From positions 1 to 59,378 of the forward strand of contig DAIDGR010000116.1 in the NCBI GenBank assembly GCA_027452265.1: a stretch of DNA of 59,378 nt. The letters are read 5' to 3'. Shown here in pieces: positions 3,781-34,246 of this stretch. This stretch comes from Caulobacteraceae bacterium. GTDB lineage: Bacteria > Pseudomonadota > Alphaproteobacteria > Caulobacterales > Caulobacteraceae. The translations under genes were made by a program, and so were the position numbers. The notes under the pieces are model-generated. The model was not told the origin of the DNA. It saw only the letters and a program-made list of their open reading frames with translations, and ran no database searches. Position 1 is the first letter of the stretch. The number at the start of each line of letters is the position of its first letter.

Positions 3781-3897
3781 TAGAGCACGATGCGTTTTCG
3801 CGGACTGCGCGAAAGCGCTGCATCGGGCTCGGTCTTAGAGTCCTTGAGCGCGTTGCGATGCGCCGGGTTCGTTACGTCCAAACACAACGCGCTCCAG
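3781..3897 (+). repeat. Two-hairpin dispersed repeat, copy A
   Basis: About 115 bp between the aminotransferase start and the typA stop. It begins TAGAGCACGATGCGTTTTCG, continues through a partner arm (GCGAAAGCGCTGCATCG, diverged), a TTAGAGTCCTTGAG spacer, then a second arm pair, GCGCGTTGCG and CACAACGCGCTC. The same order is seen in copies B, C and D, and reversed in E and F. There are no coding features. Confidence 0.8.
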
Positions 3898-6080: not shown

Positions 6081-6168
6081 CGACGCGTCTCTGACGCATC
6101 TGCCCTTTCTGGGCGTTTCCTCCCTAATGAACTCGCCGCGGATCCGGAAACGGGTCCGCGGTTTTTTT
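6081..6168 (+). ncRNA. Candidate trans-acting small RNA (~88 nt)
   Basis: An orphan transcription unit between typA and the N-formylglutamate amidohydrolase gene, opposite to both. Predicted structure from the sequence: hairpin 1 GCGTC-TCT-GACGC (6085-6097), hairpin 2 GCCC-TTTCT-GGGC (6102-6114), a single-stranded linker 6115-6135 with CCTCCC, then a strong intrinsic terminator. An exposed CCUCC is an anti-Shine-Dalgarno seed, as used by several alphaproteobacterial small RNAs. I do not recognise the family. A short open frame starting ATGAAC at 6127 runs through the terminator and is unlikely to be translated. Confidence 0.5.
6136..6168 (+). terminator. Intrinsic terminator of the small RNA candidate
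   Basis: An 11-bp stem, mostly GC and closed by a GAAA tetraloop (6047-6050 +100, i.e. 6147-6150), with one T-G pair, pairs 6136-6146 with 6151-6161. It is followed directly by seven T residues (6162-6168). This is the best rho-independent terminator in the window. Confidence 0.85.
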
Positions 6169-6270
6169 CTGCGCGCGGCGCCTCGGCGCCTGTCTGGCGG
6201 GCGCCGGACGCGCAATGTGGTCAAGGCATCGTCAGGACTTTCGCGCCCTCAGGCTGCCCTCAGACCGCCC

Positions 6271-13660: not shown

Positions 13661-13791
13661 GTGGCGCAAACTCCTCGCCTGTTCGGGCGCCAAACGACGC
13701 ATTTGACGATGTCGCACAGGACAGGTCGCATGGACCAGCGCCCTGCGCTATTCAGGCCTCCCTGCCCTCAAGGCCCCGTCCTTGTCGGGCT

Positions 13792-13905
13792 GAAGCACCC
13801 GGCGTTTGCGTGAAATCGGCGAAGACGCTGAATTGTGCTCTACGTTCAAGTCCTCGAGCGCGTTGCGATCCGCCCTGCCCGCTCCATCTAAACGCCATGC
13901 GCCAC
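13792..13905 (+). repeat. Two-hairpin dispersed repeat, copy B (degenerate)
   Basis: This copy has GAAGCACCCGGCGTTTGCG, then GAAATCGGCGAAGACGCTG, AATTGTGCTCTA, and CTCGAGCGCGTTGCGATCCG, in the same order as copy D. The two halves of the outer stems have diverged, so pairing is weaker. It sits in the dapB-maeB divergent intergenic region. Confidence 0.65.
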
Positions 13906-13926
13906 AGGCGCCACGGAGACCCCTTC

Positions 13927-17196: not shown

Positions 17197-17276
17197 CAGA
17201 GCACGATGCGTTTTCGTGGACTCGGCAAAGACGCTGAATCGCGCTCTACCTTAGGGTCCTGAGCGCATTGCGAAGC
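17197..17276 (+). repeat. Two-hairpin dispersed repeat, copy C (3'-truncated)
   Basis: It starts CAGAGCACGATGCGTTTTCG, has the partner arm ACGCTGAATCGCGCTCTA, and ends after GAGCGCATTGCGAAGCG, where the rest of the second hairpin is missing and a terminator stem begins. It lies just downstream of the short-chain dehydrogenase gene. Confidence 0.8.
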
Positions 17277-17883: not shown

Positions 17884-17999
17884 TAGAGCACGATGCGTTT
17901 TCGTGGAATCGGCGAAGACGCTGAATCGTGCTCTATCTTAAGGTCCCTGAGCGCGTTGCGAAGCGCCGGGTTGGTTCCGTCCAAACGCAACGCACTCAA
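17884..17999 (+). repeat. Two-hairpin dispersed repeat, copy D (best copy)
   Basis: The first hairpin has perfect 11-bp outer arms TAGAGCACGAT / ATCGTGCTCTA and an inner stem GCGTTTTCG / CGAAGACGC (one G-T pair). The second hairpin has TGAGCGCGTTGCG / CGCAACGCACTCA, with one mismatch and a loop of about 26 nt that includes GGTTGGTTCCGTCCAAA. It lies just upstream of the lipoprotein gene start, so it could be transcribed in either direction or lie between promoters. Confidence 0.85.
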
Positions 18000-18694: not shown

Positions 18695-21813
<3,119 letters not shown>

Positions 21814-25307: not shown

Positions 25308-25424
25308 TGGAGCGCGTTGCGTTTGGACGGAACCAACCTGGCGCATCGCAACGCACTCAAGGACTCCAGGATCGAGCCCGATTCAGCGCTTTCGCGGAGT
25401 CCGCAAAAGTGCATCGTGCCCTAA
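25308..25424 (-). repeat. Two-hairpin dispersed repeat, copy E (reverse orientation)
   Basis: On the plus strand it reads GGAGCGCGTTGCGTTTGGAC, ATCGCAACGCACTC, GGACTCCAGGATCGAGCCCG and ends GCATCGTGCCCTAAC: the reverse complement of the copy A/D order. The terminal CTA (TAG on the minus strand, 25421-25423) is the stop codon of the peptidase gene, so the repeat abuts and supplies that stop. Confidence 0.8.
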
Positions 25425-27121: not shown

Positions 27122-27682
27122 ATGAGCTCACTGCCTCGCCGGATCGCCACATCGGCGATCGCCATCCTGGCCACCGCCTCCATGGCGGCCTGCGCCTCGC
27201 ATCCCAAGCCCGCCCCGGCTCCGGCTCCCGCGCCGGCCCCGGCTCCGGCGCCGCAGGCTCCGCCGCCTGCCCCCCCTGAAGCCCCGCCGCCGCCCGCGCC
27301 CACCGGCCCGGTTCCGGGCTCGGTGCAGGATTTCGTGATCAATGCCGGCGACCGCGCCTATTTCGACTTCGACAAGTCCACCCTGCGCGACGACGCCAAG
27401 GCGACGCTGGACAAGCAGGCGGCGTGGCTTGAGCGTTGGCCGACGGTGATGGTCCGGATCGAAGGCAATACCGACGATCGCGGCACCCGCGAATACAACT
27501 TCGCCCTCGGCGCCCGGCGCGCGGCTGCGGTAAAGGACTATCTCGCGGCTCACGGCGTGTCGCCCTCGCGCATCACGACGGTCTCCTATGGCAAGGAGCA
27601 TCCGATCGCCGCCGGCAATACCGAGGAGGACTATGCGAAGAACCGCAACGCCCACACGGACATCGTCTCGGGCGCCCAGTGA
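27122..27682 (+). CDS. pal: Peptidoglycan-associated lipoprotein Pal
   Basis: Pal anchors the outer membrane to peptidoglycan as part of the Tol-Pal system active at division. The 186-residue protein starts at ATG 27122 and has a lipoprotein signal with SMAAC (Cys ~24), a repetitive Ala/Pro linker (~30-62), and an OmpA-like domain: VYFDFDKS-type DRAYFDFDKSTL, VRIEGNTDDRGTREYN and GARRAAAVKDYL with the diaminopimelate-binding Asp and Arg. The usual upstream tolB is absent: a divergent peptidase gene lies there instead. The tail (KNRNAHTDIVSGAQ) differs from the common NRRAxxxx ending. Confidence 0.95.
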   Translation: MSSLPRRIATSAIAILATASMAACASHPKPAPAPAPAPAPAPAPQAPPPAPPEAPPPPAPTGPVPGSVQDFVINAGDRAYFDFDKSTLRDDAKATLDKQAAWLERWPTVMVRIEGNTDDRGTREYNFALGARRAAAVKDYLAAHGVSPSRITTVSYGKEHPIAAGNTEEDYAKNRNAHTDIVSGAQ

Positions 27683-34115: not shown

Positions 34116-34130
34116 CCTCCGCCGGCGTCG

Positions 34131-34246
34131 AGAGCGCGTTGCGTTTGGACGGAACCAATCTGGCGCGTCGCAACGCGCTCAGGGACTCTAAAACCGAGCA
34201 CGATTCAGCGCTTTCACGGATTCCGCGAAAGCGCATCGTGCTCGAG
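34131..34246 (-). repeat. Two-hairpin dispersed repeat, copy F (reverse orientation, overlaps coding sequence)
   Basis: The plus strand reads AGAGCGCGTTGCGTTTGGAC, then CGTCGCAACGCGCTCAGGGA, GAGCACGATTCAGCGCTTTC and ends GCGCATCGTGCTCGAGA. Outer pairs GAGCGCGTTGCG / CGCAACGCGCTC and GAGCACGAT / ATCGTGCTC are perfect. The last ~30 bp encode the C-terminus and stop of the DUF779 protein. Confidence 0.85.

Follow-up and report, generated by a model that had tools for sequence, protein, structure and literature searches.

A dispersed two-hairpin repeat of a Caulobacteraceae genome, probably a MITE of the CIR/RIME type moved by an IS630-type transposase

Copies, anatomy and fold of the element

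The window, that is, the whole stretch of 59,378 nucleotides of Caulobacteraceae DNA analysed here, holds an intact copy of a short repeat at 17884-17999 on the forward strand. This copy served as reference; alignment, fold and model delimit it as a 112-bp core (GAGC...ACTC) with TA and AA as flanking dinucleotides. The general layout of the element is a flanking dinucleotide, a 112-bp core (GAGC...GCTC) made of two hairpins and a linker of about 12 nt, and a second dinucleotide, usually set in the context C-NN...NN-G. In the fold of the reference copy, hairpin 1 occupies positions 17884-17935 of the forward strand and carries a 3-nt TGA bulge on its 3' arm, the linker joining the hairpins lies at 17936-17947, and hairpin 2 lies at 17948-17998, with GGAACC at +22 when read inwards from the 3' end. 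The sequence GAATC, an instance of the GANTC motif that CcrM methylates (as stated in an excerpt of PMC2229807), occurs on the forward strand at 17906-17910 in the apical loop of hairpin 1, at +23 from the terminal TA (the offset also seen in the IS630 ends described below), and again at 17923-17927 at the bulge.

The original prediction placed six copies in the window, and inspection of the sequence and of model spans confirmed the position and orientation of each. Besides the reference, three copies lie on the forward strand: one at 3781-3896, a decayed old copy of 61 bits at 13791-13906, and a copy truncated at its 3' end at 17197-17276, for which the model match extends to 17303. Two copies are reversed, at 25308-25423 and at 34130-34245, the latter with TC on both flanks. 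No Rfam family matched at the six copies at the gathering threshold.

These six copies are a small sample of those in the genome, so that the earlier observation was correct but too small. A BLAST search with one copy gave at least 50 own-genome matches at E <= 0.001, reverse and partial matches included (40 of 91 candidates scored). The covariance model R1, built from 11 copies of the window's genome, produced 136 matches at E <= 1 in a scan of that genome (2.73 Mb). We retained 89 places, of which 69 have E <= 1e-10; retained places reach an E of 0.016 and tandem neighbours among them overlap by at most 2 nt, while opposite-strand duplicates, partial reverse matches and one match at E 0.028 were left out. 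R1 matches range from identical to barely recognisable. The 112-bp cores of four copies at unrelated sites are identical, and 29 pairs among the 64 full-length copies share at least 97% identity; the element has recently multiplied in this genome. Head-to-tail tandem copies were observed on contigs C15, C41, C46, C65 and C76 (loci L115, L077, L081, L087 and L066), several of them close to contig ends; tandem neighbours have a junction of 2-3 nt in common and a period of 112-115, mostly 114.

The minimum free energy fold contains both full hairpins in the copies at 17884 (z -5.0) and 34131 (z -7.3), none of 200 shuffles being as good. The copies at 3781 (z -2.3) and 25308 (z -2.7) keep hairpin 2 and, of hairpin 1, the inner stem, the outer stem being partly re-paired; the fold is not significant at 13792 (z -0.8) and 17197 (z -1.2). 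Own-genome copies fold without a bulge in hairpin 2, many relatives (e.g., G003 and G008) carry there a mirrored bulge (TCA on the 5' arm), and a few (G010b, G034) fold without the bulge of hairpin 1. Since hairpin 2 approximates the reverse complement of hairpin 1, copies of many relatives match the model on both strands. Two hairpins form in 40 of 42 elements, a set to which most genomes or records contributed one or two; the structure-aware models by which they were chosen favour elements that fold, and their stem sequences nevertheless differ widely. Among the 39 elements with exactly two top-level hairpins in the fold, the linker is 9-17 nt long and usually measures 11-13 nt.

The original prediction held that changes in the arms are partly compensated, and this proved weakly true within the genome and strongly true between genomes. 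Among own-genome copies, changes on both sides of a pair occurred in 16 of 1888 cells (7.1 +/- 2.1 in shuffles), and such changes touched seven pairs (4.5 in shuffles, 32 of 500 of which reach seven). Nineteen of 59 copies have a disrupted pair 7-46, and the RNAalifold consensus contains the inner stem of hairpin 1 without reaching the complete form with two hairpins. Between genomes, the hairpin 1 arms had a mean duplex energy of -27.8 kcal/mol with their own partner and of -11.6 kcal/mol when matched to partners from other elements; the best partner of an arm was its own in 34 of 40 elements. The proposal of an element family with conserved loops and linker is borne out, together with arm pairing that is kept between lineages. 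That the two-hairpin form is maintained between lineages and not in each copy is expected if it serves multiplication instead of the individual site, and the hairpins can be explained without invoking selection on an RNA.

Copies are rich in CcrM-type sites. GANTC reaches 15.0 per kb in own-genome copies, compared with 1.41 per kb in the window outside copies, and the window as a whole is depleted of the motif (94 sites, with 266 expected from dinucleotide shuffles); 11 of these 94 sites fall within the six copies, whose combined length is 1.1% of the window. A GANTC is present at element positions 23-27 in 46 of the 64 full-length copies. The middle base of this apical site is variable (A in 30, C in 24, G in 7 and T in 3), and its G, A, T and C are kept in 62, 61, 53 and 58 of 64 copies, respectively.

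Insertion sites and placement relative to genes

The relative G005 retains gene order and 74-87% identity over the compared region, and two of the sites that are occupied in the window are empty there. At the 17884 site G005 has 62 bp where the window has 174 bp, with a junction that is ambiguous by 2 bp, and at the 34130 site 28 bp where the window has 151 bp, with a diverged spacer; the wider model R2 found no element at either counterpart. Site 25308 had no model match in relatives, whose intergenic DNA aligns too poorly there to call the site empty. At site 17197, G005 and G010 also align poorly, and G011 carries an element (L208, 1595-1711) behind the gene that also precedes the truncated copy, the two elements being either inherited in common or the result of parallel insertion. 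With two empty orthologous sites and identical cores at unrelated sites, the element is short (112 bp), non-autonomous and mobile.

The flanks bear a partial trace of target duplication. Left and right dinucleotides are equal in 21 of 64 own-genome copies, compared with 11.3 in shuffles (P 0.00075), and among the full-length copies the element is preceded by C in 52 of 64 and followed by G in 55 of 64. TA flanks 17 of 64 copies on the left and 15 of 64 on the right in this genome, whereas G087, a complete genome, has CTAGAG at the left end of 16 of 18 copies and TA at the right end of 18 of 18. The four copies with identical cores are flanked by GA/TA (C2:1311), TT/TG (C65:11803), CG/CA (C25:32627) and TA/TA (C17:65637); since three of the four have unequal dinucleotides, the window's genome shows no clean duplication of TA. 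The unequal flanks of such young copies might reflect a dinucleotide carried over from the donor site or a relaxed C-NN-G target. CTAG itself occurs 16 times in the window (1-59378), compared with 60 expected from dinucleotide shuffles.

Genes were called with our own codon-usage caller, which assigned 88% of 330 kb to coding sequence. Overlap with called genes is at most 5% in 75 of the 89 copies, 20-53% in 11, and complete in three, which lie wholly inside a call. Gaps between convergent genes account for 32 of 72 gaps with a copy and for 28 of 212 without one (Fisher p 1.6e-7), and of the gene ends that face a copy, 61 of 105 3' ends but only 6 of 59 5' ends are within 20 bp (overlaps included). 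Furthermore, at 13 facing 3' ends the gene and the copy have exactly 3 nt in common, indicating that the end of the element provides the stop codon. The element is dispersed, recently multiplied, absent at two orthologous sites and mostly intergenic, lying above all behind convergent stop codons. Selection against harmful insertions can be sufficient to explain placement behind convergent genes, and a function is not implied.

Distribution and the ends shared with IS630

R1 detected the element in 15 of 60 relatives, the window's genome included, and in 12 of 16 within the genus. The wider model R2 detected it in 29 of 289 genomes of the class (again including the window's genome), 25 of 224 genera and 22 families (a count of listed labels), figures that miss weaker members because R2 was built on and favours TAGAGC-ended elements and the scan filters were strict; the best match was examined in 19 of the 28 other genomes. 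Some relatives in the class have longer-stemmed forms of 126-143 nt. Plasmids carry the element too. Same-genus copies matched 260 Rhizobium plasmid records at 560 places (L053) and seven Sphingobium records and one Terrarubrum record (L057). A blastn search with the 17884 copy gave no match among plasmids. R1, which contains copies of the window's genome only, gave three unannotated Rhizobium plasmid elements scores of 60.7, 56.3 and 41.3 bits; a Sphingobium plasmid element reached 33.1.

Several observations were made along the way in these relatives. G087 has solo single hairpins besides its approximately 18 full copies, with one-hairpin matches on both strands at 27254, 102483, 716825, 1587373, 4455102, 4620590 and other places. 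At its locus L230 a full element and a solo hairpin enclose a gene for a putative FkbM-like methyltransferase (judged by eye), and at L227 another such pair encloses a transposon (IS481-type by eye). The IS481-like transposon was discarded as the mobiliser, having different ends of its own. In G057, from another family of the order, divergent elements with weak matches stand at L052 (1501-1841), in tandem and with a common dinucleotide as judged by eye.

Many copies end in TAGAGC-N15-[G/T]GA, the 5' consensus being TAGAGCa.GATGcgtTtAg.cGGAAtCG. In the 42 elements, GANTC stands at +23 in 17 of the 5' ends and 8 of the 3' ends, with at most three at any other offset; [GT]GA at +22 is found at one end or more in 34 of 42 and at both ends in 19 of 42, and GANTC at +22/+23 in only 25 of 42, all of these counts being partly built in since the elements were picked by models trained on motif-bearing copies. 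The offset from the end also holds in the long-stemmed forms, where the loop lies further away from the end.

The window's genome encodes a transposase (DDE_3; IS630 by NCBIfam) at the start of contig C74, in an insertion sequence with one end reading TAGAGC and the other TAGGGC inwards. Limits of multi-copy IS630 in G087 (five and three copies) and G110 (six copies), whose copies are 98.9-100% identical, read TAGAG...CTCTA. A plasmid search with the IS630 protein of the window's genome returned 813 records, and 15 were taken among the 40 matches listed, 13 of them alphaproteobacterial; five elements from G000, G087 (two), G334 and G110 were added. Ends were set by comparison of copies, by the best TA-containing inverted pair, or by eye, some of them through the TAGAGC string; unlike the element ends, they were not selected by a model. 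GANTC is present in 14 of the 16 alphaproteobacterial IS630 with both ends set, 13 times at +23 and once at +22 from the terminal TA. The two exceptions, from Paracoccus and Methylobacterium, have no end GANTC, nor have the two non-alphaproteobacterial IS630 in the set (Oscillatoria and Hymenobacter). Where a single end was found, it lacked GANTC in Roseomonas and carried it in Sphingobium. An IS630 end of same-genus G014 carries GANTC, but G013, G206 and several same-genus IS630 loci gave no such ends, so that the end motif belongs to a subgroup of IS630. The motif thus appears, from comparison of the ends, to be common to the element and an alphaproteobacterial IS630 subgroup, a correspondence that we report as new. 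In G304 an IS630 end adjoins an element, as judged by eye, with one TA common to both (L266).

The 15 nucleotides between TAGAGC and [G/T]GA single out few partners. Those of the own-genome element match the resident IS630 at 4 and 7 of 15 positions, and those of G087 at 5 and 6; only in G110 (11 and 8 of 15) and for one end in G334 (11) does the resident IS630 match best. The mismatch in the window's genome means that the actual transposase partner was not found here. DDE_3 had no match in 8 of 16 element-bearing genomes or records, among them G003, G004, G010 and the near-complete G034. Draft assemblies lose multi-copy insertion sequences, and the IS630 of the window's genome itself sits at a contig end, an explanation that does not extend to G034. 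The check for a linked transposase that had been suggested earlier found none near the copies, and the leading candidate is a transposase of the IS630 family that would act in trans. A search of the genome for isolated end motifs gave 571 matches with at most one mismatch. About the first 100 places were considered, and eight of those outside copies were inspected: for seven the examined stretch contains no partner end, and the eighth (C7:23295) is a solo hairpin adjoining a copy. A TAGAGCGGGATGCG site in G007 resembled a matched insertion-sequence end and was discarded, lying about 270 bp from a fragmentary transposase.

Interpretation, rival explanations and known systems

We consider it probable that the element is a MITE of the alphaproteobacterial CIR/RIME-type group that is moved in trans by an IS630-type transposase. 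The enzyme would bind the terminal GAGC together with the motif at +22 to +28. Each half of the element is composed of an end and its complement, and the hairpins follow from this. Movement in trans would entail a 2-bp duplication at CTAG-like sites, and copies would persist where the stop codon is regenerated or lies just upstream. Many instances of the motif at +22 include GANTC, so that the CcrM methylation state might, more tentatively, time the binding of ends within the cell cycle.

Hairpins in inverted arrangement with bulges, as seen in the element, are also typical of REPIN and BIME with RAYT. A REPIN-like repeat would owe its movement to a REP-associated Y1 (IS200/IS605-like) transposase, an enzyme that recognises bulged hairpins in single strands, and both the fixed place of the bulges, mirrored in hairpin 2 of many relatives, and the divergence of stems between genomes combined with similarity within one genome are in line with it. 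However, the window's genome has no Y1 transposase (the control was positive in 10 of 14), nor have 13 of the 16 element-bearing genomes or records, a duplicated dinucleotide such as the flank signal suggests is not expected, and the end motif resembles IS630 instead. This explanation is largely refuted and we regard it as very unlikely. About equally improbable is an IS5/IS427-group transposase as the mover, duplicating TA at YTAR as IS711 does. An excerpt of PMC3163539 reports IS711 with this specificity inserted in the 103-bp Bru-RS1, and the window's genome has one DUF4096 copy; yet the 18 DUF4096 loci, some of them cut by contig ends, are without an inverted pair of GAGC-type ends, and DUF4096 was not found in the element carriers G003, G004, G010 and G015.

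A third possibility, unlikely but less so than either of these movers, is that copies are kept for a function, as bidirectional 3'-end hairpins that terminate, trim or protect transcripts or as clustered regulatory CcrM sites. The enrichment in convergent gaps and at nearby 3' ends (61/105, compared with 6/59 5' ends) points in this direction, as do the density of GANTC (15.0 vs 1.41 per kb) despite window-wide depletion (94 vs 266) and the G011 element at L208, common or parallel, behind the same gene as the truncated 17197 copy. Selection against insertions in genes and promoters gives the same pattern, though, and the spectrum of decayed copies, the two empty orthologous sites and the broken pair 7-46 (19/59 copies) argue against retention for a function. 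Individual copies could nonetheless have been co-opted.

The element falls among catalogued repeats. CIR reportedly denotes the CcrM-associated intergenic repeats of Chen and Shapiro, 2003. An excerpt of a review (PMC2229807) describes CIR as about 110 bp long, made of two arms and a linker, with GANTC exposed in loops, TA termini and positions outside genes; it lists no TIR and gives the target duplication as not known, with the mechanism of mobility and the role of GANTC still to be found. The element fits this published description: both are alphaproteobacterial, intergenic, about 110 bp long and built of two linked inverted repeats with GANTC at a terminal loop. TA termini are nearly constant in G087, but in the window's genome TA stands on the left of only 17 and on the right of only 15 of 64 copies, and the element differs from the listed CIR features in its IS630-like inverted ends and partial 2-bp duplication. 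The original prediction had likened the repeat to RIME while keeping it apart from the rhizobial repeats; the likeness stands and the separation does not, given the 60.7-bit R1 match to a Rhizobium leguminosarum plasmid element. The matched Rhizobium plasmid elements, in records that do not annotate them, we take to be probably RIME (Rhizobium-specific intergenic mosaic elements), and they may be RIME1 itself. They are homologues of the same architecture, and the element, unlike what the name of RIME implies, is not specific to Rhizobium. The function of RIMEs and other rhizobial intergenic repeats is given as not known in an excerpt of PMC2573895.

Two further systems are comparable by description. 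Bru-RS1 of Brucella, where Bru-RS2 also occurs, is a 103-bp intergenic palindromic repeat hit by a TA-duplicating insertion at YTAR (excerpt of PMC3163539). RUP of Streptococcus pneumoniae resembles the element as a 107-bp MITE with a TA target, ends like those of an IS630 transposon and proposed mobilisation in trans, and with IS630-Spn1 is given as the best case of its kind; it differs in belonging to different bacteria and in that no two-arm structure or DNA motif is reported for it (excerpt of PMC2229807). In an excerpt of a 2024 MITE review CIR is called intergenic, and the terms IS630 and RIME do not occur (PMC10969869); no report tying CIR or RIME to IS630 was found among the titles and abstract openings of the open-licence papers that our searches returned.

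The IS630-like end motif connects the rhizobial and caulobacterial repeat families and makes both the mobility mechanism of CIR and the role of GANTC directly testable. It also suggests that some intergenic CcrM sites could derive from mobile elements, a point of relevance to the interpretation of such sites in cell-cycle studies. A broader proposal, which we hold to be doubtful though worth stating, is that CIR, RIME and the present element form a single class-wide superfamily of IS630-driven MITEs, and that the transposition of IS630 and its dependants is gated by the chromosome methylation cycle through a CcrM site at a fixed offset in the end motif. If so, intergenic clusters of GANTC would have arisen as a side effect of transposon ends instead of serving in regulation.

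Two other features of the window were observed. A suhB/mmgR small RNA lies at 6095-6175 on the forward strand (50 bits), and an 84-nt direct repeat (19256-19339 and 19640-19723, 75% identical) within the 692-aa reading frame 18695-20773 is probably a duplicated protein domain.
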